64,000 nt of DNA from Clavaria fumosa (taxonomy: Eukaryota > Basidiomycota > Agaricomycetes > Agaricales > Clavariaceae), in the NCBI GenBank assembly GCA_951802425.1, contig OX637800.1, positions 1,984,001 through 2,048,000 on the forward strand. The letters run 5' to 3'. Within the stretch, counting starts at the first letter, position 1; the number at the start of each line of letters is the position of its first letter. This document shows, piece after piece, positions 22,246 to 61,439 of this stretch. A program made the translations under genes and the position numbers. The notes below the pieces were generated by a model. It ran no database searches. It was not told the DNA's origin and saw only the letters and a list, made by a program, of their open reading frames with translations.

Positions 22246-22312
22246 GAAGTCATCAGATGATGCTGGGGCACAATGTCACATGACAAATAATCCAAGGGCA
22301 CACACACCCACA

Positions 22313-22582
22313 AACCCTGGGGTGCAGAAGCAGGGCAGACATTATAACACACCCAAAAACCCTGGGGTGCAGAAGCAGGGAAGATATTGTAACACACCCT
22401 TAAATCCTGGGGTGCAGAAACAGGGCAAATGGCATAACACACCCTCAAACCCTGGGGTGCAGAAACAGGGCAAACAGCATAACACACCCTCAAACCCTGG
22501 GGTGCAGAAACAGGGCAAATGGCATAACACACCCTCAAACCCTGGGGTGCAGAAACAGGGAAAATGGCATAACACACCCACA
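22313..22582. repeat. Minisatellite, 45-bp unit, six copies
   Basis: CCTGGGGTGCAGAA recurs every 45 bp from about 22315. The unit is a multiple of three, so both strands stay open. On plus it reads as 15-residue repeats (NPGVQKQG...NTP). Confidence 0.9.
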
Positions 22583-22885
22583 ATGGCTGTGAGGGAGATC
22601 TTCTGGCTGAGGAGTTTCCTTGCCAAGGTGGGAGCCAGCAAACCAGGGGTGACCAGGCTGTGGCTTGATAACATGTCAATGATTGCCATAATAAAGAATA
22701 ATAAGCTCCATGCACACACCAAACACATTGACATCCAGCACCATTTCATTTGTGAAGCAGTTGAGCAAGGAACAATAGGTGTGGAGTATGTGCCAACAGG
22801 AGATAATGTTGCAGACAGCCTGAAGCTGCTTCTGCATCCTGCTTTTGAGACCTTCATTAGGGAACTCACACTTCTGCCCATTTGA
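22583..22885 (+). pseudogene. pol: Ty1/copia pol, C-terminal RNase H fragment
   Basis: The frame starts REIFWLRSFLAKVG and goes through TRLWLDNMSMIAIIKN, HTKHIDIQHHFICEAVEQG and EYVPTGDNVADSL to RELTLLPI and a stop. This is the classic end of copia RNase H, with the Asp of LWLDN and the KHIDI and GDNVAD blocks. The upstream polyprotein is absent and replaced by the 45-bp minisatellite. A polypurine tract (GAGAGGGAG) and LTR follow, so this is the 3' end of a copia element on the plus strand. Confidence 0.88.
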
Positions 22886-34438: not shown

Positions 34439-35344
34439 TGTAAGGATAATATGCGGTTTGAACATAGAAACATGACAGATACCGATCATCCGGATATTTC
34501 GGGATCCAAAGCAATCGCGTCCGATACGATCCGATAACAATCCGACACCATCCGATAACGACCGATACTTGTCCGACATCAGACTCTCCGGTCTCCAACT
34601 CCCTGTGAAGATCACAGCCCACAGGTCTCACACACCACCCACGCCTTTCTATTTCATCACTCCAGCATGGTCAGCGCTCGACATACTCATTATTCCATTT
34701 CCATTCCTTTATTTCATATAACATGCTGTAAATTTCATATTGTGATCCCTTTCAACCATTCAATCATTTGAACGTTTCCAACCCTTTGCAGTACTTTGCC
34801 CATTGTTCCTAATACCCCTTTGCTGTACCAGCCCCACTTTCCTTCAGTTTACAAGCGGTCTGGACATGTGCTACTCATCGGACATTTCATTCCTCCGAGC
34901 TACTCAATTCTCTTGTGATATAACTCCCTCATGTAACCCTTCACGCGACATGGCGCTGTGCCATATGTTTTCCGGACATTTCCGTACATTCCAATTTGCT
35001 GTACTTACAGAACTGTACTTAAGCACACTTCGGACTATACGGAAATCCAGCTTTTTAACGCCCACATCGTGCTGTGATTTTTAGCAAGCTCACCTTTTGT
35101 CGTACCTATTGATCCGCTGGCCTTCGTCGTCACCGGTGCCTCGAACCTTCGATCCAAACATCGGACTCTATCGGATCCGATACCGGATACTCCGGACAAC
35201 GTATATTTTCACTCTCTGAACCTTTTGCACTCAACCTCCATATCCTCCAAGGTTCTGTCTAGTATACCCGTTGTGCAATAAGACCCCCTGAAGAACCCGG
35301 CCGCGAACATCTGTTTGCAGCCAACACCTGTACAGCCTACTACA
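34439..35344 (+). repeat. B 5' LTR (906 bp)
   Basis: It starts TGTAAGGATAATATGCGG and ends CAGCCTACTACA. A putative primer-binding site (TGGAGCCCACCGCGAGG) follows within five bases. A dense cluster of CCGAT/ATCGG words lies near 34480-34590. About a dozen differences from the 3' LTR are visible, nearly all C/T or G/A. Confidence 0.95.
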
Positions 35345-41543: not shown

Positions 41544-41555
41544 AAAAAAAAAAAA
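41544..41555 (+). repeat. A-tract downstream of pol (copy B)
   Basis: Twelve A residues, then TTGAAAAAAAAATTG. This is the same position as in A and C. Confidence 0.8.
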
Positions 41556-42271: not shown

Positions 42272-43189
42272 TGTAAGGACCATATGCGATCTAAACACGG
42301 AAACATGACAGATACCGACTATCCGGATGTTTTGCGATCCAAAGAAATTACGTGCGATACGAACCGATAACGATCCGACACCGTCCGATAACGACCGATA
42401 GTATCCGATACATGTCCGATGTCGGACACTTCGGTCTTCAATCCCCCGTGACGATCACAGCCCACCGCTCTCACACACCGCCCACGCCTCTCTATTTCAC
42501 CTCTCCAGCACGGTCAGCGCTCGACATACACACTATTCCATTCCCATTCCTTTATTTCATATACCATGCTGTAAATTTCATATTATGATCCCTTTCAACC
42601 ATTCAATCGTTTAAACGTTTCAAACCCTTTGCAGTACCTTGTCCATTGTTCTTAGTACCCCTTTGCTGTACCAGCCCCACTTTCCTTCAGTTTATGAGCG
42701 GTCCGGACATTTGCTAGTTATCGGACATTTCATTCCTCCGAGCTACTCATTTCCCTTGTGATATAACTCCTTCATGTAACCCTTCACGCGACATGGCGCT
42801 GTTCCATGTGTTTTCCGGACATTTCCGTACATTCCAATTTGCTGTACTTACAGAACTGTACTTAAGTACACTCCGGACCTCTCTGAAATACAGCTTTCTG
42901 AACCCCTTCTCTCTGTTAGAAACCTCACCTAAGCTCACCCGTCGTCGCAACCTTCGATCCGCTGGCCTCCGTCGTTGCCGGCCCTTCGTCTTATCGCACC
43001 ATCCTTATCGGATTTTATCGGACACATAGCAGAATATCCCGGACACCGTATATTTCTATTTCTCACATATTTTGAATTCATACTCCACATCCTCAAGGGT
43101 GTTTGGTGAATCTCTAACGCCTTACAGGAACCCCTGAAGGACTTGACTGTAATCAAGCAGTTGCAGCAAGAACCGTAATACCCACTACA
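42272..43189 (+). repeat. C 5' LTR (918 bp)
   Basis: It starts TGTAAGGACCATATGCG and ends AATACCCACTACA, followed by a putative primer-binding site TGGAGCCCACCGCGAGG. The first 180 bp contain repeated CCGAT, CCGAC and TCGGAC words, several spaced about 10-14 bp apart. Confidence 0.95.
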
Positions 43190-43578
43190 ATTCTGGAGCC
43201 CACCGCGAGGGGTTCAACAAGACGTCTTCACTACCACCCTCAAGGATTCCCAGAGGCTCATCCGCTCCTCAGCCTCGACGCTCCGAACGCCTGAGAAGTC
43301 GAAACCCGAATCCGATCACAGAACCACCGCCCTCCGAACCCCCCGGAGAAGTAATTGAAACTTCCCACCTTCTTCCATCGGACATTCCCAGTATCTCATC
43401 CATTGTCTACTCCCACACGAGTTTCACCACTCCGGATCCCTCACTACCACAGACCTTCGAACAACCACACTCACCGCTTACACCACTTCCCCTTGAACCA
43501 GACATCCTTCATTTCCCGCCCGAAACACCTCAGAATTCACCAGACGAAGTTCACTCACCGCCCCACGCACCAATACAA

Positions 43579-45576
43579 ATGGCCAACCAACCGAGATATC
43601 CGCTCCGTGGCGCCCACGGGGCCCCTGCCTTTGACGGAGTACCGACACACCTCAACCGGTACTTCGAGGACATCGACATCGTGCTCACCGGAGTCAACCC
43701 GGACGTTCCAGAACCCGATTTAATTCGGTACGCCAAGCACTATCTCGACACCGATACGTGTCTCCTCTGGGAGACTCTTTCACCTGACCCGGACCCGGTA
43801 TGGACGTGGGATACCTTCAAAGCGGCCGTCCGACGACTTTATCCAGGATCTGATGGAGGTCGCTTATTTTCCGTCGCCGACCTGGACCGTTTCATATCGG
43901 ACTCGGCCCAAAAGGGAGTTTACACGCGCGCAGAACACGGAGAATACTATCGGGACTTTCTCCGGATCACCTCGCACTTGATCACATCACAGCGTATGTC
44001 CACAAATGACAGGAACCGACTTTACATCCTCGGATTTGGGGATCATACAAGGCGTCGGATCGAAAGCCGACTCGCTATCATACTACCAAACCACCATCCG
44101 GAGGATCCTTACCCCATGAATGAAGTACATGGTGCAGCTGAATTTCTTCTCTCCTCGACGTCCCCCCACTCTGCGACAACCGATCAACTTTCCGGACCCG
44201 TCCGTCTCGCATCTTCAGCCCCCGGGAGAGAAACGAAACCGGTAGTCAAGAAGGAAGAATTTGATATGTCCGCAGCCTGGGCAACATTCGCTTCCACAAT
44301 GGCTCGCCTGGAATCGATTTTGACAGCCCAATCTCTCGAACCGGCAAGACACTCCGCTCCCCGGACAACGAACTCTCCCGCAGGCCGGACGTGTAATTTC
44401 TGTTCGGAAATAGGTCATTTTGTTAGTGCCTGTCCGAAGGCCCTCGAATACATTAAGTCCGGCAAATGTATACGGAACACAGAAGGCAGGATTTGTCTCC
44501 CCTCCGGACGATATTTGCCAGGCACTATCTCAGGGAACAACCTATCCGAGCGCTTCGACAAGTACTACGCTACATACCAATCCCAGAACACGCAACTGGC
44601 GACAACCGCGGTATTTGAAGCACAGCCGATCGGACAATCCGCTCACCCCCCGGACATGGAAGACGATTCGGACGAGGAAGATGACGAGAATACCGTGTTG
44701 GAAAACATGGTCCGCACCTTTGCAAACGATGTCGCGAAGAAAGTAGACAAGGGCAAAAGGAAAGCACCCACACCCAGGAATACCGATCCTCAGCCATCTA
44801 GGTTACCGCCCCCACCCGCCGTTGTTATTACGCCGCCTCAGGTCACTCGTCCATCAAAGCCGGAGAAAATCGAACGACCCGACGTCCAGTACCATTACCA
44901 AGCTCCGATCGAAAATCCGGTAACCGTTCAACAAGTATTCGATCGCGCACTCGACATGCCAGTCCGCGTCACACCTCGCGAACTACTCGCCATTTCCGGA
45001 GACATCCGCAAAAAGATGAAGGATGTGGTTACCGCTCGTCGCGTTCCGGTCACCGCGTCCGTCGTACAGGATACGCTCTATACAAACATTACGGTCCCGG
45101 ACACCTCCGATCTTGTTGTCGCCGTCGACGCTGCTCCGCTCCGCATCGTAGAAGGGATATTGGACAACCGGATCGCCGCGGAGTGCCTGCTCGACCAAGG
45201 CAGCTCAATCGTGGCAATGCGAAGAGACGTTTGGGAGAAACTCGGCAACCCACTACACTCCGAGAACGTTATTCACATGGAATCCTCTCATGGCACCATC
45301 GCTCCGACCCTCGGACTCATCAAGAATTTCCCCCTACAGATCGGTCCGTGCACATTCCATGTTCAAATGCAAGTAGCAGACACGTTGCCCTGCGAGGTTC
45401 TTGTCGGACGACCGTTTTTCATGTTAACCGGTTCCCAAACGATTGACCATCCCCACGGGGCCCAGGACCTTATTCTCAACGATCCAAACACCGGAGAAAG
45501 AATCATAGTGCCAACGAAGGAGCGAATCCCGATCCACAAATCCTTGAAGAACAAGAAACCGCATCCGGATTTTTGA
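43579..45576 (+). CDS. gag: Element C gag-protease (665 aa)
   Basis: The start MANQPRYPL is conserved with B. The upstream ATG of B is ACG here, so this Met is the likely start. A capsid-like helical region covers residues 1-200. The CCHC knuckle CNFCSEIGHFVSAC is at about 272-285. A proline-rich linker (RLPPPPAVVITPP) and a retropepsin-like domain with LLDQGSSIVAM near residue 538 follow. The frame ends HPDF-stop with the run TTTTTGA (45570-45576). The downstream pol frame is -1, so a slip of the Phe tRNA on the U-run at the stop is a possible way to make Gag-Pol. B instead has a TGATG overlap. Confidence 0.92.
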   Translation: MANQPRYPLRGAHGAPAFDGVPTHLNRYFEDIDIVLTGVNPDVPEPDLIRYAKHYLDTDTCLLWETLSPDPDPVWTWDTFKAAVRRLYPGSDGGRLFSVADLDRFISDSAQKGVYTRAEHGEYYRDFLRITSHLITSQRMSTNDRNRLYILGFGDHTRRRIESRLAIILPNHHPEDPYPMNEVHGAAEFLLSSTSPHSATTDQLSGPVRLASSAPGRETKPVVKKEEFDMSAAWATFASTMARLESILTAQSLEPARHSAPRTTNSPAGRTCNFCSEIGHFVSACPKALEYIKSGKCIRNTEGRICLPSGRYLPGTISGNNLSERFDKYYATYQSQNTQLATTAVFEAQPIGQSAHPPDMEDDSDEEDDENTVLENMVRTFANDVAKKVDKGKRKAPTPRNTDPQPSRLPPPPAVVITPPQVTRPSKPEKIERPDVQYHYQAPIENPVTVQQVFDRALDMPVRVTPRELLAISGDIRKKMKDVVTARRVPVTASVVQDTLYTNITVPDTSDLVVAVDAAPLRIVEGILDNRIAAECLLDQGSSIVAMRRDVWEKLGNPLHSENVIHMESSHGTIAPTLGLIKNFPLQIGPCTFHVQMQVADTLPCEVLVGRPFFMLTGSQTIDHPHGAQDLILNDPNTGERIIVPTKERIPIHKSLKNKKPHPDF

Positions 45577-48500
45577 GAGCTGGAGCCTCGAATGTCCGCA
45601 AACCAACGGACTTACCTCCGATCAATGCGGACACGGAAGCTATACCCAGATACGAGACTCCAGCCATTTTTCCTACTTCCGTTCACGTTCCCTTATCGTT
45701 TTCCCTTATAAACCCAGTCTCTCTCGACCCCTTCCCCTGTATCAGTATCTCGGACGTTTCTCTCGATTCCGCTGATTCCCCAGTCGCTATCGGACGTGAA
45801 CCGTCGCGTCCAAATGTTGCAACCCCCTTGTACAACAAAACCCCCGAAATAAATTCCCTGTCTACGGACGCCGTTCTTCCAGTTTACTTGGGAAAGAAAT
45901 ATAAGAAAGTCGCGAATCGCGTCAATCCGATCAAAGCGACAGTACCCAAAGAATTCCGGATTGTCCGACGCCGACACCCGGACCCCCTAGCCGATATGCC
46001 AACTCTTCCGACCCATCCCCCCGATTTCACCCCCGGTCTTCGATACACTCAAAACCGGAAAGACACGCACAACGCCAACCCCACCGGATTCTTATGGCCG
46101 GAGGAAGAAAAACTCGTTCACCATCTTATTAAAGCCCAGGAAGACGCCTTCGCTTGGAAAGAGACCGAAAAAGGACGATTCGACGCAAAATACTTCGATC
46201 CGATTATTATCCCGACAGTCGAACATATCCCTTGGATCTTCAAAAATATACCGATTCCCCCTGGTATTTACGACGAAGTTCTCAAAGTAATCCGGGAAAA
46301 GATCGCAGCCGGCGTTTATGAAGAATCCAACTCTTCTTATCGGTCCCAGTGGTTTTGCGTGTTAAAGAAAGACGGAAAGTCTCTCCGACTCGTGCACAAC
46401 CTCCAGCCGCTTAACAAAATCACTATCGGCGATTCCGCGGTCCCCCCGATAATGGAGGTTTTTGCGGAATCATTCGCCGGACGCGGATGTTACGGATCAC
46501 TCGACCTTTTCGTCTCCTTCGATCAGCGGTCTCTGGACGAACGAAGCCGAGACCTCACCACGTTTCAAACCCCTCTCGGAGCAAAACGGCTCACCTGCGT
46601 CCCCATGGGATACACCAACGCGACGCAGATTATGCATGGAGACGTCACGCATGTTCTACAAGATGAAATTCCGCACGTAACCATCCCATTCGTAGACGAT
46701 GTAGCGATCAAGGGCCCGGAAACCCGATACGAGCTTCCGGACGGCACCTACGAGACGATCCCTGAGAATCCGCAAATACGACGATTTGTTTGGGAGCATT
46801 TAAATAACGTCAACCGGGTGCTCCAACGAATCAAGAAAGTCGGAGGAACCTTTAACGGCAAGAAAACGACAATTTGCGTTCCCGAAGCAGTCGTTACCGG
46901 ACATACGTGCACATACGAAGGACGAGTTCCGGATGCCTCCAACGTTCAGCGTATCCGGGACTGGCCTCCTTGCAAAACCCTGACCGATGTCCGATCATTT
47001 TTAGGGGTTTGCGGACTACTCCGGATATTCATTAAAAACTACGCCGTACTTGCCCGACCTCTTGTCAGTCTAACTCGCAAGGACGTGCCATTCAGATTCG
47101 AAAAAGAAGAACAAAACTCGATGGACCGACTCAAACACGCGATTCTGAACTCATCCGCCATCCGACCAATCGACTACCGCTCCGGACAACCCGTAATCCT
47201 CGCCGTCGACTCATCAAATATCGCCGTTGGTTTCGCACTCTTCCAAATTGGAGAAGATGGAATACGATATCCCTCCCGCTTTGGCTCCATTACCTGGAAC
47301 GAACGCGAGGCCCGATACTCACAAGCAAAAATCGAATTATACGGACTCTTCCGCGCACTTCGGTCGTACCGGATTTACCTTATAGGCCTTCCGAAATTTA
47401 CTGTCGAAATGGACGCGAAGTTCATTAAGGGTATGCTAAACAATCCGGACATTCAACCCAACGCTGCCATGAATCGATGGATTGCCGGTATACTACTCTT
47501 CGATTTCGATCTTGTTCATATTCCCGCAGATAAGCACACCGGAGCCGACGGACTATCACGCCGACGTGCCGCAGATGGTGAAGAAGATACCGAGTCTGAA
47601 GATCACGAAGAATGGATCGATCGGAGCTACGTATTCGCCATGGAACACATGAATCGAGCACCGGACGCTTCCTACACATCCGAGACACGACTCGCCGGCA
47701 TCACCCATACTCGCTTCAAAGTTTACACAGGATCGACGCTACTCAATTCGACGGTACCACCCGAGGAATCACCGACCCCGAACGAATCTTCCGCCGTCCT
47801 TATACCCCGATCCGATGCAGCAAACAAAAGAGAAGAACAGATTCGCAAAATTGAATCTTTCCTTCGAAACCCGATCCGTCCCTCCGGCATTGACGCAAAC
47901 CAGTTCCGACGACTGGTCCGCTCCGCATCCGAGTTCTTCATCCTAGATGACAAATTATGGCGTCGCCGACCTAACGGATACCACCAAGTAGTACCTCCGG
48001 ACCACAAACGTCTCGCAATTATCACAGAGGCACACGATTCACTCGGCCACAAAGGCGTTTACGTTATCCGGACACGTATTCTAAATCGGTTCTGGTGGCC
48101 GGTGCTGGATCAAGACGTAAAATGGTTTGTCAAAACTTGTCACCAATGCCAAACTCGGCAAATCCGGAAGATCTTCATTCCACCGACGGTCGCTACACCG
48201 GCCGGTCTTTTCCGTCGAGCGCACATTGATACTATGTTCCTACCAAGAGCCCGCGGTTTCCGACTTCTCGTCCATGCCCGATGCTCGTTATCTGCATATC
48301 CGGAAGCAAGACCGCTACGAAACGAGACCGCCCGACTTCTCGGAACCTTCATATTCGAAGATATACTATGCCGATGGGGAGCAGTAGAAGAGATTATCAC
48401 GGATAACGGAGCCCCATTTATCAAAGCCCTCGATTTCCTTAAGAAACGGTACGGAATCCATCACATCCGTATATCCGGATACAACTCCCGCGCTAACGGC

Positions 48501-49310
48501 GTCATCGAACGTGCCCATCGATCGGTCCGTGAGTCGTTAATCAAAGCAGCAGATGGAGACGAATCGAAATGGCCGGACGTTTTACCCTCAGTCATTTGGG
48601 CAGAACGAACCACGATCCAACGGTCCACCGGCCACTCCCCATTTTACATCGCACATGGCGTCGAACCGCTTTTCCCCTTCGACATATCCGAAGCAACATA
48701 TTTAATTCCGACCGCCGACGCCCCGATGACCACTCCGGAACTGATAGCCCTTCGTGCCCGCCAACTGCAAAAACGAGAAGAAGATCTAGCAACAATCGCC
48801 GATAAAGTGCTCGCTGCCCGCAAACAATCCGTCAAGCAGTTCATCGACGCACACCGGAAGTCTATTATCGACTACGACTTCCAACCCGGATCGTTGGTAT
48901 TGATCCGCAATTCGGCCGTTGAAATGGAATTAAATCGAAAAACAAAACCGCGATTCTTCGGACCGATGATCGTCGTTCGCCGAACACAATATGGCGCCTA
49001 TATTCTCTCGGAACTCGACGGCGCCGTTTCCAAAATCCACTACGCAGCTTTCCGCATCATTCCCTACTATCCGAGGTCGCAAACATCGATTCCGGTCACT
49101 TCTATCATCGACCAAACGACGGAGATAAACGAGGACATCTCTCCCTATCAAATACACGAGGCGTCACCCAACTCTATCGACAGAGAAGATGAGCAAAACC
49201 AAGCGGCTGACCTATCCGATGAATCCGATAATGAAACCACCGACGACGACACTGCAGAAACTCGTCCGCAACGCTCCGGAGCAACCCGGAACCTTCGGCC
49301 TCGCCATTAA
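45577..49310 (+). CDS. pol: Element C pol: RT, RNase H, integrase (about 1245 aa)
   Basis: The frame is open from just before the gag stop (45573) to 49310. It has no ATG at its start, so it is presumably expressed by recoding from gag. RT has motif IPFVDDVAIKGP (about residue 372), with Phe in place of the usual Tyr of YxDD. RNase H has LAVDSSNIAVGFALF (about 543) and MDAKFIKGML. Integrase has HDSLGHKGV ... CHQCQTRQ (about 817-860) and the catalytic triad in HIDTMF (884), TDNGAPF (943) and VIERAH (977). The C-terminal domain has LNRKTKPRFFGPMIVV. There is no chromodomain, and the C-terminal tail is acidic. All key residues are present. Confidence 0.93.
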
Positions 49311-49367
49311 GTATTTTTTCTCCATCATATCCTTCATTTTTCTATACTTCACATTGATTCACACCTT

Positions 49368-49368
<1 letters not shown>

Positions 49369-49404
<36 letters not shown>
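49369..49404 (+). repeat. A-tract (36 nt) downstream of pol in element C
   Basis: 36 A residues lie between the pol stop and the convergent antisense gene. This is the longest of the three copies' tracts. Confidence 0.9.
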
Positions 49405-49406
<2 letters not shown>

Positions 49407-49546
49407 GAAATTTCGGACAAGTCCAAACTTTATACCCGACGTTCTTTCAACCATTTTCTCACATTCTCACATTCCTCACTTATCCCACACGACATACCAT
49501 ACCAAATAGAAAAAGATAAACATATATAAAAACAAAAACAAAATAT

Positions 49547-51096
49547 TTACTTAGAGGACGACTCGCCAAGGAGGAGCATCCGGAGCAGCTCCGCTCCGGC
49601 CTTCACCTGGTCCGCCCCCCTCTCCATCATCTCCAGCGCCCTATCGAGCGCCTCCCTCCCGGACACCCCTCGCGCCACCTCCCGCTCCTTACCCTTCCGA
49701 CTTGGTCCCGCCTCCGCCTTCTTCTTCTTTGCCGGCGGCTCCTCCACCAGCTCCACACTGGTATCCTCCTCAATCTCGTCCTCCTCCTCCGGCGTCGTCT
49801 CCTCGCGAACCGGTACCCGCGTCGCACCTCGCCTCGGCCTCTTACTTCCGCTCGCTCCCGCCGCCTTCGGACCTGTTCCGATACGTTAGCAAATGCGGAC
49901 CCGATACCTTCTCGACATACCTTCCGTTCCGGACACCGCCGCTCTCTCTGTTTTCGCTCCTGAAACACACCTATCATTTGTCTCATCATGAAAAATAAAA
50001 AGAATACCACTTACCTCGCACAGCCGACAGACTGCACGATACCTTATACGTCCGGCACCACCGGCACGCTATCCCCTCCACTCCGTAGCACGCCCGCCAC
50101 TTCCGGGTGCACTCCTTGCACCCCGGAACGTGCTCCTAATCATTATATCAGACGTCGAAAAAGCCTCACATATCTTAATTAACCACTCACCTTATCTCCA
50201 GGCTGCCGCGCAGCCCGGGACTCTATGTCGCTCTTCGCCCCGCCTCTCCTCCCTCGCCCTCGCTCCGCTGCCTTCCGCCTCGCGATCTCCACCCACACCG
50301 GAGTCGCCATCATCCGCGCACCGTCCCGGTGCACGAACATCGGCTCCTCCACCGACTGCTCGCCTCCCCCGGCCACCGCACTCACCGCCGCCGCCTCGAT
50401 AACACCGACGGGCGTCACCCCGTCGGTTCCCCACACGGTCCGATGACCGTCCGGATCCTCCCCTGCCGCCACCTCGTCCACACGCAGCTCTCCGGCGTCC
50501 GGTGATATCGTCGTCGTTGTTACCGCCGCTGCACCGGACTCCGCCGCTCCCGTCGTCGTCGTTGTTGCCGCCGCCGCCGCCTCGCCCTCGTCGTCGCTGT
50601 CACTTACGACAATTAAGCGCGCCCGGGCAAGGCGCGCCCTCTTCTCGGCAGCCCTCGCCGCCTCCGCCCGCCTCTCCTCCGCCTCCGCCTCTGCTGCGGC
50701 CCGCTCAGTAGCCGCCCTCTCCTCGCTCGTGCGCTGTTTCTCGGCCTCGACCTCCTCCCGCCTTCTCGTCCGCTCAGCGGACCACTCGTCCCCGCGGAGC
50801 TTCCGCCACTTCTTGAGCCTTCGCGCGACCCGGACGAGTCCCTCGTCCACCTCCACGTCGTCGTCGATCGCTGCCACATATCCGGCAAGAAAATCGTCCT
50901 AAAAACGTTGTCAGTGCGACACAAAAAGTACGAAAGATTCTCGTTCACGCACCGCGTCACCCGCATACGTCCCCACCCACTCCGCGCACTCTCCATCCTG
51001 CCCCCGATCCGGCAACTCCTCGCCCGGCGCCATGGCCTGCGCCTCGGTCATCGCCTGGACTGCGTTTCGAAAGATTGAAGAATCGAAGTTTTCCAT
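49547..51096 (-). CDS. Antisense five-exon gene of element C: coiled-coil protein with Zn(II)2Cys6-type cluster (445 aa)
   Basis: Minus-strand exons are 51096-50953, 50898-50191, 50135-50015, 49959-49921 and 49872-49547. Introns are 54, 55, 55 and 48 nt, all GT-AG. The last has a GCTAAC branch-like word. Joined length is 1338 nt, ending in TAA with no internal stop. Order: a short N-terminal domain (MENFDSSIFRNAVQAMTEAQ), a basic then Glu/Ala-rich coiled coil (about 65-140), an Ala/Thr-rich linker and a VGVIEAAAV segment. Six cysteines at about 290-318 (codons 50120-50034) have the spacing C-x2-C-x6-C-x7-C-x2-C-x6-C. An acidic/basic stretch and a C-terminal helix (ADQVKAGAELLRMLLLG) end the protein. 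It starts 157 bp inside the 3' LTR and converges on pol. B keeps the cysteines although residues between differ. Role unknown; DNA binding and regulation of the element are inferred. Confidence 0.82.
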
Positions 51097-51253
51097 TGTC
51101 GGAGAGTTGACGTGTTGCTGTCGCTGGAGAAAACACAAGGGTGTGTTTGGACCTATGTGTACCCACACGACGCGTACTTCACGATCAACAAACCGTTATT
51201 TGGCCTCGTTTGGTTGCAACCGAGGGCGGTTGCATTTTCAGCCCCCGGGAGAA

Positions 51254-52171
51254 TGTAAGGACCATATGCGATCTAAACACGGAAACATGACAGATACCGA
51301 CTATCCGGATGTTTTGCGATCCAAAGAAATTACGTGCGATACGAACCGATAACGATCCGACACCGTCCGATAACGACCGATAGTATCCGATACATGTCCG
51401 ATGTCGGACACTTCGGTCTTCAATCCCCCGTGACGATCACAGCCCACCGCTCTCACACACCGCCCACGCCTCTCTATTTCACCTCTCCAGCACGGTCAGC
51501 GCTCGACATACACACTATTCCATTCCCATTCCTTTATTTCATATACCATGCTGTAAATTTCATATTATGATCCCTTTCAACCATTCAATCGTTTAAACGT
51601 TTCAAACCCTTTGCAGTACCTTGTCCATTGTTCTTAGTACCCCTTTGCTGTACCAGCCCCACTTTCCTTCAGTTTATGAGCGGTCCGGACATTTGCTAGT
51701 TATCGGACATTTCATTCCTCCGAGCTACTCATTTCCCTTGTGATATAACTCCTTCATGTAACCCTTCACGCGACATGGCGCTGTTCCATGTGTTTTCCGG
51801 ACATTTCCGTACATTCCAATTTGCTGTACTTACAGAACTGTACTTAAGTACACTCCGGACCTCTCTGAAATACAGCTTTCTGAACCCCTTCTCTCTGTTA
51901 GAAACCTCACCTAAGCTCACCCGTCGTCGCAACCTTCGATCCGCTGGCCTCCGTCGTTGCCGGCCCTTCGTCTTATCGCACCATCCTTATCGGATTTTAT
52001 CGGACACATAGCAGAATATCCCGGACACCGTATATTTCTATTTCTCACATATTTTGAATTCATACTCCACATCCTCAAGGGTGTTTGGTGAATCTCTAAC
52101 GCCTTACAGGAACCCCTGAAGGACTTGACTGTAATCAAGCAGTTGCAGCAAGAACCGTAATACCCACTACA
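51254..52171 (+). repeat. C 3' LTR (918 bp)
   Basis: It is preceded by CAGCCCCCGGGAGAA, a weak polypurine tract. It looks identical to the 5' LTR by eye. Confidence 0.95.
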
Positions 52172-54073: not shown

Positions 54074-54979
54074 TGTAAGGATAATATGCGGTTTGAACAT
54101 AGAAACATGACAGATACCGATCATCCGGATATTTCGGGATCCAAAGCAATCGCGTCCGATACGATCTGATAACAATCCGACACCATCCGATAACAACCAA
54201 TACTTATCCGACATCGGACTCTCCGGTCTCCAACTCCCCGTGAAGATCACAGCCCGCAGGTCTCACACACCGCCCACGCCTTTCTATTTCATCACTCCAG
54301 CATGGTCAGCGCTCGACATACTCATTATTCCATTTCCATTCCTTTATTTCATATAACATGCTGTAAATTTCATATTGTGATCCCTTTCAACCATTCAATC
54401 ATTTGAACGTTTCCAACCCTTTGCAGTACTTTGCCCATTGTTCCTAATACCCCTTTGCTGTACCAGCCCCACTTTCCTTCAGTTTACAAGCGGTCTGGAC
54501 ATGTGCTACTCATCGGACATTTCATTCCTCCGAGCTACTCAATTCTCTTGTGATATAACTCCCTCATGTAACCCTTCACATGACATGGCGCTGTGCCATA
54601 TGTTTTCCGGACATTTCCATACATTCCAATTTGCTGTACTTACAGAACTGTACTTAAGCACACTTCGGACTATACGGAAATCCAGCTTTTTAATGCCCAC
54701 ATCGTGCTGTGATTTTTAGCAAGCTCACCTTTTGTCGTACCTATTGATCCGCTGGCCTTCGTCGTCGCCGGTGCCTCGAACCTTCGATCCAAACATCGGA
54801 CTCTATCGGATCCGATACCGGATACTCCGGACAACGTATATTTTCACTCTCTGAACCTTTTGCACTCAACCTCCATATCCTCCAAGGTTCTGTCTAGTAT
54901 ACCCGTTGTGCAATAAGACCCCCTGACGAACCCGGCCGCGAACATCTGTTTGCAGCCAACACCTGTACAGCCTACTACA
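54074..54979 (+). repeat. B 3' LTR (906 bp)
   Basis: Same ends and length as 34439-35344. It carries extra CpG-to-TpG/CpA changes (for example CACATGACA for CACGCGACA). Confidence 0.95.
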
Positions 54980-57900
54980 GCATGTACTCGTAGTGCGCAC
55001 ACCTCCTCCAGGCATCCGCAGGGTAACTCGTCCCCTTCAGGGTCAAGGCGAACATCCGCCTTTACGTACTCATGATCCAGATGAATCTCATCTGTTGCAT
55101 CACTCATATGGTAACACGAAAGGCCATCCGCAACTTTGTTGCTCTCGCCTTTAATGTAAGTGATGGAGTAGTTAAACCTCTCCATATATTCCATCCACCT
55201 GGCCTGCCGGCCAGACAAGCGCGTTTGGTTCTTAAAGAACCCCAGCGCTTCGTGGTCTGTGACCACGTTGATTCGTCTACCAAGGAGTTTATCCTCCCAT
55301 TTCTGTAGCGATTTGACAATTGCTAAGGCCTCCCGGTCCCAGGTTTTGTAACTAAACTGGGCCGGGCTGAACCTTTTAGACATAAACCCCGCTGGATGGC
55401 AGGTTTCCCATGTCTTTCCCTGGCCATACATGGCCCCTATGCCCGACACTGATGTGTTGCACATGAGCCAGATTGGCTCCTGTACTGCCATGTCTACCAG
55501 GCGTAATATTGGTGTTTTACATGCCAATGCCTTAATCATCTCCATGCACTTGTCATGGAGTGGTCTCCAGTGAAATGTTCGCGTTTCACTACACAGACTA
55601 GCCAAAGGGCCAGTGTAAGCAGACAGATCGGGCATGAACTGTCCGATGTACTGTACTAATCCAAGGAACCTCTGCACCTCATTAACGCTTGTCAGCATTT
55701 TCCAGTTACAGATTTTATCCATTTTATCCACTGTGATGTGGATTCCTTGGGCATCTATAATATGCCCTAAGCAATCTACGCTCTTCGCGTATAACGAGCA
55801 CTTCTTCTTGCTCAAGAAAAGGCTTGTGCCTTTGAGGGTCTCAAAGACCGTCTTTAAGTGACGCTCATGGTCCTCCAAGGTCTTGGAGAAGATGAATACA
55901 TCGTCTAAGTACACATGCACGTACTTTCCCAATTGATGACGAAATATGTGCATCATCAGGCGCTGGAAGGTAGCAGGGGCATTACAATCCCCTATCTGCA
56001 TCACCTGTGAGAACATGGTGCCCAAGACGGTCGTGAATGCCGTCTTCCACATGTCCTCAGGCTCTACGCGTCCGATAGGTCAATCTTTGACCTATATGCA
56101 GCTCTAGTCACATCCTGCCTGATCTGATCCTGATCAGGCAACGGGGTGATATCCTGTACTGTGTTTGCATTCCGTTTCCGACAGTCTACGACTGTCCGTA
56201 GCAGCGGGTTCCGGCTGCTTTTTGGTATGCATAACATAGGAGCTGCTTGCGATGCTGCTCCTGCTTCCCACCAACCGTTAGTAATATAACGGTTCACTTT
56301 CTCAAGGAATTGTTCCTTAAATGCCTCAGCACACCGAGGCAGGTAATAATTATAGACTTGCTTTTCATCTATTAAGGGTATGCGGTGGTTCACTGCCCAA
56401 AACGGCGGCAGTCTGGGGGGAACTCCCCCAAAGAGCTCAGTGTACTGGTTAAACCAGTACTCACGCCTGCCTTCAAGGTAGGCGTCGTCTATCTTTACAG
56501 AGGCGTTAGCCTCTCCCCCCTTCCAGGGCTCACTCGCATCCCAGGGGCCCGAGTGTAGTCAGCTCTTTCAAGCTTCCTTCCTCGGCGTGTTCTTAGCCGA
56601 TATATGGATGCGTAATGCTTCTGTCTCCTCACTGGGCGACATCGCCTGAAGGGTTTCCCCTTCCCTTCGCCAATCCGGATTGCACGTTGGTGCACATCCA
56701 GTATCACACGGCGGTCATACATGAACGCCATTCCGACTATGATATCATAGCGGTCGATGTTCGCTATATCAAAATACTGGTCCTCCACCAGTATTCCTCC
56801 CAAATCTACCGCTATGCGGCATCCATGTGTGATTGTCGATTGGCTGCTGATACAGCCAAGTTGGATAGGAACTGGATTATCCAGTTGGAAGGTCGGTACC
56901 TTCGTCACCTGGGCAAAATCCAGGCTCATCAGGTCTGGGGTACTTCCAGAATCGAAAAGCGTATACGCTTTTACACCGTTCATGGTGATGTAGGCCGCGA
57001 GGCATTGCCTAGCCTCCTTTGTCACTACCGGGCGTGATCTCATCCACTCCTTCTGGACGTGCGCCCGAAACAGCCTGTCGTCGACATGGCCAACACGTAC
57101 TTCTGTCGTGTAGAGGACCTCGTCCTCTTCCAATTCCTGGATTCCAGCGACCTGGTCGCTTTCCGCCTCCTCCTCAAGCTCGTCCGAATCGTACTGGTCC
57201 CCATGACCAGCGTAGTTGTCTTCTGCGACTTCCTCTGGTAGGGCTTCACCCTCCGGCTCCTCGCTTTCAACCGCAGGTGTTTCCGGTGGTTCTTCGGGCT
57301 CTGACTCGCCCAGCTCCTCTTGTAAGGCATAGTTCCTTACATTTCCCCTAAAAGCCTCTGGCTTTTGCTGTGACTGAGGGCACACATTCGCGTAGTGCCC
57401 TGCTTTCCTGCACATATAGCATGTTAGAGGAGCTTTCCGCTCCTCTCTGCCTCATACCTCAATCTTGGGCACCGCCTTAGGCAGTTCTAGCCAGGGTTTG
57501 CTTCCTCCGGTTTGGATGCGGTCGATTCGCAGGGGAACAGGTTCCCCTGGCCTACGGTCTGTGTGCAGCCGATACGGCCACAGTCTCACAAACCTCTGCC
57601 CCACAGGCACTCTGCCTGTAGGCGGGTTTCCTTTGGGACCTGCCTGGTTCCCTACTGAAGGCACTGCCCTCCGCTGCTGGAGGTAGTGGAGGGTCGCTTC
57701 CACTTGGCAACTAGCATCGATAATATCCTCAACCGAGGATAACTCGACACTAATCGCACAAGTTTTGAAGATGGCCTCCACCATCTCGTTAGGCAGTCCA
57801 TTAAGGAACTGCCTTTTCATCATACCGGCATCAGGCAGGGTGAGCATTCTCTCCGCCGCCTGGGCCAATTTGTTCCAGAATCCCAAGGCGCCCTTCGCCT

Positions 57901-59197
57901 TTGTAAACTTCACCTGATAGAAGGCATCCACTGCCTTCTGGGCCATTACCTCGATCAGGAACCGCTTAAACATAGTGGTTATCAATTCCTCGAAGGTCCA
58001 CCTTCGAGGAGCATGGGATAGACCCGTTACTTCTTGGGTATACCAAGTAGTGGCTATTCCGCTTAAGCATGACCCCGCTAGCATAACGTGTTGGTGCTCC
58101 AACTGCGGGCCGACTACTCTATAGAAGTAGAAGTAATTAAGGAGGCCATCAAGCCACCTTTCCCAGACGACGAGGTCGTCTCGTCCGTCATAAAGCTCAG
58201 GGGGGTCAATCTTAATCCCCCTAATCTCAGCTATTGCCTCAGGCAATAGCAAGGTTTTATCTCATATCATCACGAGGTAGCGATGTAATACATCACTCTG
58301 GTAGTTTGTAGAACTCGGGGACACCTCCCGAGTAATCTCCCACTCCTTCTGGGGCGGTTCCATCCATCTGAATGGGCCCATCCAGCCTGTTGGCTCTCGC
58401 TGACCCAGCTGTGGGTAGCACGACATAAGCCATGGCTCTGGCCCCGCTGTTTCTCGAGGGCTGCCGCCCCCCATTCCTGGTTCGCCAGGGTTTCGAGAAC
58501 TGTCTGCATGGTTCTCCCTTCGCCACCCTTCCTTGCAGTCGGCTGGCGCCTGACTCGGTGGGGCAGGCCCCACTTTGGGTTCCAACGAATCACAGCATTG
58601 CCGCCGTAAGGGAGCCGCTAGCACAGTTCCCTGCTCATCTAGCGAGTCCAACACCCACCTAACGTGGGTAGCCTCCTCGCTTAGCCGTTGCCAAATAGTG
58701 GCTTGGCGATTTTTCATCGCCCTTACAAGAGCCTCAAACTCTTCGTCCTGGCGGGAAAGTTCCACCTGAATGTCCGAGAGTCTCTTGGCGACAGCATTAG
58801 CTTGCGCTATCGCTGTGGGCTCATCTCCACTATTGGAGGGAGCCCACGAGCTTGACCGCTCTCACGGCCACCTCTCACGGGTTTCTAAGGGCTCTCTGCC
58901 CTTTCCTTTTGAAGGTCCGGCCTTCTCAAATGATGGCGCCTCGCCAGTGACTTGGCATGTTGTGGCGCCCTCCTCGTGGCGATTGCCACGTGTCGACGGC
59001 GTTTCAGACCTAATGCCGTTGTCAGGGGCTGGTGACGCCACGTCAGCCCTTAGCGGGGGTTCACCGCTGGGCTCGACAGAGGGTTCTATTCCCTCTGGCT
59101 GCGTGATGCCTGTGTCGTGCAGGGGTCCTACCAAGGGAGGAGTTTCTCCTCCCTTCCTGTTGTGCTTCTTCTGTGCGGCTATATGGGTGTAACCCAT
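54980..59197 (-). pseudogene. gag-pol: MG gag, protease, RT and RNase H (5' part of a single gag-pol frame), decayed
   Basis: It starts at an ATG at 59197 (MGYTHIAAQKK). Gag is one frame with TGA at 58859-58861, 58262-58264 and 57452-57454. The capsid region includes DPPELYDGRDDLVVWERWLD and LIEVMAQKAVDAFYQV, and the knuckle CYMCRKAGHYANVC is at 57427-57386. A retropepsin-like segment has TLFDSGSTPDLMS. A shift at a C6 run near 56516 moves the frame. RT then has KIDLSDA (motif A), after which a small deletion near 56068 removes the expected next residues and shifts the frame again. YLDD is intact (YVHVYLDDVFIFSKTL), and RNase H has VTDHEALGFFKN. At 54980 the frame hits element B's LTR and continues at 34438. 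Confidence 0.92.
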
Positions 59198-59235
59198 TTC
59201 TAGCCACACTTGTTGTGTTGAAGGTTCAAAAAAGT

Positions 59236-59460
59236 TGTAATACTTTCTATCCCTCAAAAGAACTGGACTCAACTGTATATTGAGTATGGTAGTTCTATGT
59301 AGAGGGATCTCCCCTCTCTGTGCAGTCGCGACACGATATATATAGGCGAGCGGCCCTCTAGGGGCCGCTGATGTAAGCATAGCCTAAGCAGCTATGCTGA
59401 TAGACTATTATGGTATGTATATTATGTAATAAAAGAATAGAAAAGGCCTATAGCCTTACA
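59236..59460 (-). repeat. MG 5' LTR (225 bp)
   Basis: Pairs with 30526-30750. The sequence just inside (minus strand ACTTTTTTGAACC) has no obvious TGG tRNA-type primer site. Confidence 0.93.
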
Positions 59461-60260: not shown

Positions 60261-60715
60261 ACAAACAAAGGCAAATAAAGAATGCTAAAAATAAAAACTT
60301 GAAATTGAGCAGCCCTGTGGCTGGTCCCTCAGGAACAGGTTACCAATCAGGCATAGCTGCTTTTGGTAAGCTGCTATGACCATGGGAAAAATTTTGCATG
60401 GCTTGCAAAATATGACTTTTTATACACCAAAAAATCAGCAAAAATCAGGAGATTCTGAATCTGGACACCCCACATTTGTATCTGCCTTGGTTCAGTGTCA
60501 ATTTGCAAAATACACAGAAAATATTCATTTTTACACAATTCTGCAGTACTCTGGGTTGAAGATGGATAGTAGAGGATACACACTACCTGTAGACATATGG
60601 GAAGGGTGTGGATTAGTTTAACAACCCACCCACCATCTCTGCCACCTCCCTGGAATCCATTACTAGGAATTATGGGTGTTATTGGCCTGGGAGCATGGCC
60701 ATTTGTTAGATTGCA
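60261..60715. repeat. Left arm of a 455-bp inverted repeat
   Basis: ACAAACAAAGGCAAATAAAG at the left end and TTGTTAGATTGCA at the right are mirrored by 60985-61439. The spacer is 269 bp. By eye the arms differ at only a few positions. Confidence 0.93.
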
Positions 60716-60984
60716 AATTCCATCCATCAGACTACACCTTATGATACCTAACACAACCATACAAAAGCCCATAATATTTGGTGCAGAACTACAGATTCCC
60801 CATGTCCATTTTCCCAAAGTTCTCAAAATCTCTCCCCAGACAGCCCTTTATGTCAAATCACATATTCCTCTTGTCCAATAGCTGACAATGTATGCATGAA
60901 AACATGTTCAAAGTTTGATGAAGTTAGGCCAAGTTCTCAGGAAGATAGCTCAGAATGTGTCTGTTGGAGTGCAAGGCAAGGTTA

Positions 60985-61439
60985 TGCAATCTAACAAATA
61001 GCCATGCTCCCAGGCCAATAACACCCATAATTCCTAGTAATGGATTCCAGGGAGGTGGCAGAGATGGTGGGTGGGTTGTTAAACTAATCCACACCCTTCC
61101 CATATGTCCACAGGTAGTGTGTATCCTCTACTATCCATCTTCAACCCAGAGTACTGCAGAATTGTGTAAAAATGAATATTTTCTGTGTATTTTGCAAATT
61201 GACACTGAACCAAGGCAGATACAAATGTGGGGTGTCCAGATTCAGAATCTCCTGATTTTTGCTGATTTTTTGGTGTATAAAAAGTCATATTTTGCAAGCC
61301 ATGCAAAATTTTTCCCATGGTCATAGCAGCTTACCAAAAGCAGCTATGCCTGATTGGTAACCTGTTCCTGAGGGACCAGCCACAGGGCTGCTCAATTTCA
61401 AGTTTTTATTTTTGGCATTCTTCATTTGCATTTGTTTGT
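60985..61439. repeat. Right arm of the 455-bp inverted repeat
   Basis: Reverse complement of 60261-60715 with the same length. The matching 81-aa frames on opposite strands in the two arms are a by-product of the mirror symmetry. Confidence 0.93.

Follow-up and report, generated by a model that had tools for sequence, protein, structure and literature searches.

An intron-bearing antisense gene with a Zn2Cys6-like cysteine cluster and a helically phased CGGA array in a Ty3 retrotransposon of Clavaria fumosa

Results

The window, that is, the whole 64,000-nucleotide stretch of Clavaria fumosa DNA analysed here, contains a Ty3 LTR retrotransposon (element C) with a gene on its minus strand. The initial annotation had described this gene as lying between pol and the 3′ LTR of a young element, which agrees with the gene's position and with the 100% identity of the two LTRs to each other. 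The LTRs end in TG...CA, the GCGC flanking the element is likely a 4-bp target duplication, and a genome search with the LTR gave at least 41 hits, of which 40 are near-identical and a single one is partial (68%). The primer-binding-site-like stretch that follows the 5′ LTR led us to take the plus strand as the genomic-RNA sense of C. The gag-protease ORF has Pfam matches to an aspartyl protease and to DUF4100, both under the cut-off, and pol overlaps its 3′ part in a different frame. In pol, RVT_1 scores slightly under its cut-off (27.9 vs 29.6), while RNase H and H2C2 exceed theirs, so that C displays the LTRs and the order of RT and RNase H ahead of integrase that define a Ty3 LTR retrotransposon. 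The features of the element are as follows.

42272..43189, plus strand: 5′ LTR of element C, 918 bp (self-comparison and BLAST)
42272..49310, no strand: CGGA/TCCG array, 194 sites, ~28 per kb, 10.2-bp spacing
43194..43215, plus strand: primer-binding-site-like stretch TGGAGCCCACCGCGAGGGGTTC, directly 3′ of the 5′ LTR, read from the sequence
43579..45576, plus strand: gag-protease ORF, open from its ATG
45447..49310, plus strand: pol ORF, delimited by stop codons, with Pfam matches to RT, RNase H and integrase H2C2
49311..49546, no strand: gap between the pol stop and the antisense-gene stop, holding a long A tract at ~49369-49404
49547..49872, minus strand: exon 5, with basic stretches, an acidic stretch and a helix-like C-terminus (by eye), and the stop
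49873..49920, minus strand: intron 4, 48 nt, GT-AG; GT/AG kept in 7/10 diverged copies
49921..49959, minus strand: exon 4, 39 nt
49960..50014, minus strand: intron 3, 55 nt, GT-AG; GT/AG kept in 8/10 diverged copies
50015..50135, minus strand: exon 3, with the whole six-cysteine cluster
50136..50190, minus strand: intron 2, 55 nt, GT-AG; GT/AG kept in 10/10 diverged copies
50191..50898, minus strand: exon 2, with a long charged helix-like stretch (by eye)
50899..50952, minus strand: intron 1, 54 nt, GT-AG; GT/AG kept in 10/10 diverged copies
50953..51096, minus strand: exon 1, ATG at 51096
51097..51253, minus strand: leader/upstream region of the antisense gene, between its ATG and the 3′ LTR
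51254..52171, plus strand: 3′ LTR of element C, 918 bp

Element C appears to be the innermost member of a three-deep nest at 30526-59460, in which C would have inserted into the antisense gene of element B, and B into element E. B is related to C and has LTRs at 34439-35344 and 54074-54979; E is a third Ty3 element and lies on the minus strand. An A tract like that of C is also found in B near 41544, and from the side of the antisense gene it is a T tract past the stop. Within the region upstream of the antisense gene, positions 51150-51235 are better conserved than exon 2 in nine of ten diverged copies (identity 0.65-0.91 across the ten), and 51097..51253 is a candidate promoter or plus-strand priming region. 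The block at 51150-51245, which adjoins the 3′ LTR, holds an inverted repeat GCAACC...GGTTGC, both arms of which seem altered in copies L075 and L078. Elsewhere in the window, a 455-bp inverted repeat with 99% complementary arms and a 269-bp spacer occupies 60261-61439 and contains zero CpG in 1179 bases, and a 45-bp tandem repeat array lies within an ORF region at 22257-22616.

The five exons join into a frame of 445 codons plus a stop, and this structure, together with the GT-AG borders and lengths of the four introns (54, 55, 55 and 48 nt), is exactly as the initial annotation had read it. We compared it with ten diverged copies (L069-L078), hand-picked to span the range of identities among at least 168 exon-2 matches and sharing 56-81% identity with C in exon 2. 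The position, GT/AG borders and shortness of the introns are maintained across these copies; the exceptions are L076 and L078, which are degenerate past exon 2, and L072, in which a deletion has removed the end of intron 4. Several of the ten carry stops or frameshifts, as old insertions would show. The 30 best-scoring copies (L009-L038, with L010 being C itself) are the best of at least 168 exon-2 matches and therefore not a random sample; all 30 have GT-AG at the four introns, and 29 of the 30, C being among the 30, have a full-length open coding sequence. Genome-wide, exon 2 has at least 168 matches (150 of 192 candidates scored) and exon 3 has 140 (140 of 140 candidates scored). Unspliced intron-2 boundaries of the C type occur at least 48 times at ≤3 mismatches (41 exact), and searches for spliced C-type junctions gave 0 genome matches at ≤3 mismatches both for exon 2-3 and for exon 3-4. 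The retention of the introns, with none precisely removed for introns 2 and 3, fits the idea that antisense introns are invisible to the splicing of the sense genomic RNA. The proposal that the introns survive because they are antisense thus gains from both observations, their positions being kept and no close copy having intron 2 or 3 excised.

To assess selection, dN/dS was computed between C and each of the ten diverged copies on exons 1-3 (exons 1-2 only for L076 and L078), a comparison across genomic copies that the initial annotation had put forward. The gene frame gave 0.23-0.33, whereas the shifted frames gave 0.94-2.08. On the opposite strand, frames f0 and f2 gave 1.21-1.88 and f1 gave 0.31-0.41, probably because f1 has its wobble positions in common with the gene frame; of the 55 pairs computed, 16 were listed, and f1 exceeded the gene frame in each of these. 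A sense-strand ORF over exon 2 was considered and rejected: in the aligned frame it is open over its whole length in five of 11 copies (L069, L070, L071, L073 and L074) and not open in C (104 of 236 codons). In the eight copies with exon 3, divergence in introns 1-3 (0.31-0.44) is about that of third codon positions (0.27-0.46), and codon positions 1 and 2 diverge by 0.09-0.26. These patterns indicate that the antisense gene is under purifying selection, and they make its splicing in the cell very likely.

The gene belongs to the element lineage and has a fixed place in it. For at least 132 of the 140 exon-3 matches, a pol C-terminus lies 3′ of the gene and no more than 4 kb away, at a median distance of 700 bp and at most 3593 bp over the 132, and the gene is on the strand opposite to pol in 132/132. 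Because the pol matches are the best 143 of 492 candidates, the pol-linked counts are lower bounds. Eight of the 140 exon-3 matches have no pol match nearby, three of the eight being of the C family by identity, and 13 pol matches have no assigned gene. Gene identity and pol identity are correlated (Spearman 0.68, 68 pairs typed). An antisense gene between pol and the 3′ LTR across a lineage is also what characterises the Retand-type aORF-3R genes; here, the LTR side was checked in the window. About ten old gene copies, alike in score and each with a pol, lie mostly near contig ends (for example C1:186040, C7:42016, C10:3296658, C13:1880291 and C14:51523) and perhaps reflect a subtelomeric duplication of the element.

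These data bear on whether the gene could be a captured host gene or a pseudogene, a passenger that does nothing for the element. The stops and frameshifts of the diverged copies would suit such a passenger, as would the mild constraint among 29 young copies (L018 left out), in which the variants comprised 14 synonymous and 24 nonsynonymous changes, none of them a stop, against a neutral nonsynonymous-to-synonymous ratio of ~3. However, the low dN/dS beside introns that drift at the pace of third positions, the same place beside pol and the correlation of gene with pol identity all argue against it, and we regard a functionless passenger as highly improbable.

The six cysteines of exon 3, at residues 290, 293, 300, 308, 311 and 318, show the spacing C-x2-C-x6-C-x7-C-x2-C-x6-C that the initial annotation had reported; a seventh cysteine, at residue 37, lies outside the cluster. 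The spacing conforms to the general Zn2Cys6 pattern, C-x2-C-x6-C-x5-12-C-x2-C-x6-8-C. The annotation had proposed to judge the cluster by the constraint on its cysteines across copies: all six are invariant in 9/9 exon-3 sequences, and the pattern is intact in 28 of 29 young copies (C included; L018, 87% identical, left out). Assignment to the fungal Zn2Cys6 family itself holds in part. PF00172 is the sole Pfam family that matches 9/9 exon-3 sequences at E up to 10, with the best member at E 0.0011, but exon 3 of C reaches 11.2 bits against a curated cut-off of 21 (E 0.41), and the HMM search proposed for the 445-residue protein gave no PF00172 row for the full-length sequence. The Pfam scan likewise gave the protein no row for the TRP28 domain (PF04195) at E up to 10. 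We therefore describe the cluster as a divergent Zn2Cys6-like module, short of proven membership. Visual inspection of the protein shows a long, charged and helix-like stretch together with basic stretches resembling nuclear signals, an acidic stretch and, at the C-terminus, a further helix-like part. A single-sequence AlphaFold2 fold was of low confidence (pLDDT 62.6, pTM 0.30), and sequence searches of the PDB found no meaningful relative. The protein database contained four relatives, all confined to exon 2, and no candidate covering the zinc cluster region. These four records (P0001-P0004) match exon 2 and then run into the apparent intron-2 donor (50190), so they seem to have the same intron boundary and may derive from the same or a related species. 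Among viral contigs, 337 pattern matches were obtained and none was confirmed.

The DNA of element C is rich in the tetranucleotide CGGA and its complement TCCG. Compared with the dinucleotide expectation, the LTR has 22 sites instead of 8 (24.0 per kb) and gag 58 instead of 30 (29.0 per kb); pol has 106 (28.4 per kb), and a slightly longer pol ORF has 109 against 63. Density is even along LTR, gag and pol. In shuffles of gag, pol and B that preserve protein, codon usage and dinucleotides, CGGA was the top 4-mer (gag z 3.3, pol z 5.1, gag and pol together z 5.9, B z 5.2). The two strands share the sites almost equally in pol (51 CGGA, 55 TCCG) and gag (28 and 30), which points to double-stranded DNA and disfavours an RNA-level packaging signal; the antisense gene itself is strand-skewed (12 CGGA, 30 TCCG). 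The controls, comprising six pooled host CCT loci, element E and the other Ty3 pols L088 and L089, have 6-8 sites per kb vs 24-29 in LTR, gag and pol. Against dinucleotide expectation, the counts were 178 vs 209 in the host loci (7.6 per kb), 52 vs 58 in E, 16 vs 18 in L088 and 15 vs 12 in L089; over synonymous shuffles, E had 44 vs 36.8 (z 2.0), so this control is not flat. The motif is therefore abundant in its own element and rare in the sampled control loci, as a VANC-type recognition motif is, but CGGA does not follow the VANC pattern of lying in noncoding tandem repeats. Diverged related lineages show enrichment to differing degrees: 85 vs 50 expected in L080, 49 vs 29 in L079 and 32 vs 24 in L090, which is hardly enriched. 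L081 (42 vs 32), chosen as a pol comparison for the L072 family, matches pol over only 462 bp and was counted neither way. The preferred flank in L080 and L079 is TCGGA instead of CCGGA, possibly a shift alongside the diverged cluster, as judged from these two lineages.

Could the enrichment be a mutational by-product of CpG methylation context, with the phase described below following from it or arising by chance? Old copies do lose CpG (observed/expected 0.80 in L079), and the CpG-poor part of the window at 7000-30000 is also over expectation (88 vs 57), yet at only 3.8 sites per kb. However, the null models keep CpG counts, CpG outside CGGA is without phase, and CpG in the pol of C (observed/expected 1.51) exceeds expectation and is not eroded. 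We consider a mutational origin improbable. The 7000-30000 region, which contains a Helitron-like ORF, has a CpG observed/expected of 0.35 (vs 1.5 in C pol), a strong CpG loss.

Besides being frequent, the sites are in register. For CGGA/TCCG pairs 4-150 bp apart in 42272-49310, the mean cosine at 10.2 bp was 0.206, as against a mean of -0.001 (sd 0.023, maximum 0.078) in 2000 random placements. Because the motif had been found by enrichment and the periods scanned afterwards, all 4-mers were ranked by phase. CGGA ranked first in C (of 121), B (of 119), the LTR of C (of 22) and L080 (of 102), and second in D (of 58), the LTR of B (of 24) and L090 (of 76); it ranked 16/95 in L079, which is enriched in CGGA yet without phase, 31/133 in the host CCT loci, 17/127 in E and 31/102 in L088 and L089 together. 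The p values for the phase were 0.0005 for L080, 0.009 for L090, 0.085 for L079 and 0.003 for the LTR. Because B, C and D are closely related, the phase in them is not independent; L080, L090 and L079 are more independent lines, though old sites are held in common. Within C, the LTR, gag and each half of pol are phased (z 3.4-5.0), and the antisense gene itself is not (0.018, z 0.3). Successive distance bands from 4-60 up to 1200-2400 bp gave z 6.5, 5.7, 3.6, 4.2, 1.4 and 7.5 at 10.2 bp. For the 24 sites of E in 54980-59460, one of six distance bands reached z ~4 at 10.15-10.2 bp. The whole-element periodogram of C is moderate, with R 12.2 at 10.19, and other 4-mers peak as high as 17.8 at different periods. 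For pol, the observed value of 10.6 was surpassed in at least one of 300 synonymous shuffles, the highest of which gave 12.6. Preferred dimer spacings were also considered and set aside: apart from the TCCGGA palindrome, most peaks fall at 10, 21 and ~31 bp.

The register is specific to the complete motif. CGG not followed by A, GGA not preceded by C and CpG outside CGGA showed no phase at 10.2 bp in C, and a plain nucleosome signal was rejected, since AA/TT (-0.023), WW, SS and all CpG (-0.017) gave values from -0.016 to -0.023 at this period. This bears on the alternative that the array is read by a host factor, nucleosomes, integrase or Gag while the antisense protein does an unrelated job. 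DNA on nucleosomes has a helical repeat close to 10.2 bp, no direct link connects the protein with CGGA, and the antisense gene has no phase of its own, all of which leave room for such a reader. On the other side, a nucleosome signal should have appeared in AA/TT, the two unrelated Ty3 pols, E and the six host loci are without enrichment over dinucleotides, and CGG is what proteins of this domain type are known to bind. Another reader is, in our estimate, unlikely, at about one chance in four.

A second alternative confines the protein to the LTRs, where it would act as an HBZ-like or TRP28-like regulator that activates or dampens sense transcription, the CGGA of gag and pol having some other cause. 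Its position and strand are those of the antisense genes in HTLV and plant Retand (PMC10186651, PMC11963269), and the LTR has its own excess of phased sites. However, density and phase in gag and pol are about the same as in the LTR, and we hold an LTR-only regulator to be rather unlikely.

Comparison of relatives showed how the sites turn over. CGGA retention from C to B was 0.720 (rank 10/123) against 0.583 for other CpG 4-mers (z 3.7), and from B to C it was 0.772 (rank 1/122). Retention was 0.518 from L080 to C (rank 3/85), 0.370 from C to L080 (rank 18/81) and 0.203 from C to L079 (rank 55/82). Sites specific to C with respect to B are in phase with the common sites (0.157, z 3.7), and B-specific sites are so more weakly (0.107, z 2.3); neither set is in phase with itself. 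With respect to L080, C-specific sites are in phase (0.244, z 4.4) and L080-specific sites are not clearly so (0.084, z 0.8), while L079-specific sites show no clear phase.

Discussion

Plant Ty3 elements are known to carry antisense genes in the interval from pol to the 3′ LTR (PMC7264820, PMC11963269), and spliced antisense regulators are known from HTLV (PMC10186651), whose antisense genes are also treated in PMC1459196, so the antisense arrangement as such is not new. The initial annotation was aware of no described regulator of this type; the suggestion of novelty falls for the antisense position and stands, to our knowledge, for the multi-intron zinc-cluster version. The titles and abstract openings listed from the open-licence literature showed no antisense retrotransposon gene of fungal or zinc-cluster type and no phased CGGA motif; the phased CGGA sites, too, are new to us. 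The aORF-3R, gene23 and TRP28 genes of Retand and Grande resemble the present gene in being antisense, placed between pol and the 3′ LTR, conserved within a lineage and suspected of encoding DNA-binding regulators. They differ in having the TRP28 domain and tandem repeats, in place of a Zn2Cys6-like module and a dispersed phased motif, and the word "intron" is absent from the two main texts searched, while the gene of C has four introns. HTLV-1 HBZ and related genes are likewise spliced antisense genes near the 3′ LTR and encode transcription regulators, a putative role here. They belong to primate retroviruses, have a bZIP or no bZIP and are of demonstrated transcription according to the accounts consulted, whereas the present gene is Zn2Cys6-like and known from sequence.

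A further parallel is VANC of the Arabidopsis VANDAL elements, a protein encoded by the element whose DNA is enriched in a short motif, which there serves self-recognition against silencing; in VANDAL21 the motif is dense, and in other transposons it is rare (PMC5735166). As described there, VANC binding has been demonstrated, and its motif, YAGTATTAY, is found mostly in tandem repeats within noncoding DNA of a DNA transposon. CGGA, in contrast, is spread over coding and noncoding retrotransposon DNA in helical register, and its binding by the antisense protein is our inference. Fungal Zn2Cys6 (PF00172) factors share the six-cysteine spacing and a CGG in the suspected site, but the cluster of C scores under the family cut-off and is borne by a retrotransposon. 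CGG triplets are binding sites of Zn2Cys6 regulators (PMC6080790), and an element that encodes such a module is itself full of CGGA, which suggests VANC-like self-recognition.

We propose that the antisense Zn2Cys6-like protein of the element reads the element's own CGGA array and thereby regulates its chromatin or the transcription of its LTR, an explanation to which we give about an even chance. The gene would be transcribed from near the 3′ LTR and spliced in the cell, and its product would be a nuclear, zinc-binding and DNA-binding protein with a divergent Zn2Cys6-like module. This protein, rather than another, would recognise CGGA in the DNA of the element. The lineage appears to have accumulated CGGA along LTR, gag and pol in a 10.2-bp register, which places many sites on the same side of the helix. 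The protein bound to this array would then act on element chromatin or LTR transcription in a direction that we can only suggest. An effect that keeps the element accessible, by anti-silencing or activation, is the favoured direction, although we put it at clearly below even odds; self-repression seems to us less likely, at roughly one chance in five. A more specific form of the proposal, also tentative and put at somewhat over one chance in three, is that CGGA constitutes a helically phased tag, present in both strands and in coding as well as noncoding DNA. The antisense-encoded protein would read it along a single face of the (nucleosomal) helix, and the element's own chromatin would thereby be told from that of the host and spared silencing. 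The likelihoods given to the alternatives overlap and need not sum with that of the preferred explanation.

The survival of antisense introns opens a way for retroelements to carry regulatory genes that are spliced. If the protein does read CGGA, the element would be a natural example of self-recognition through helically phased motifs across coding sequence, and how a transposon is told from host DNA would become directly testable.
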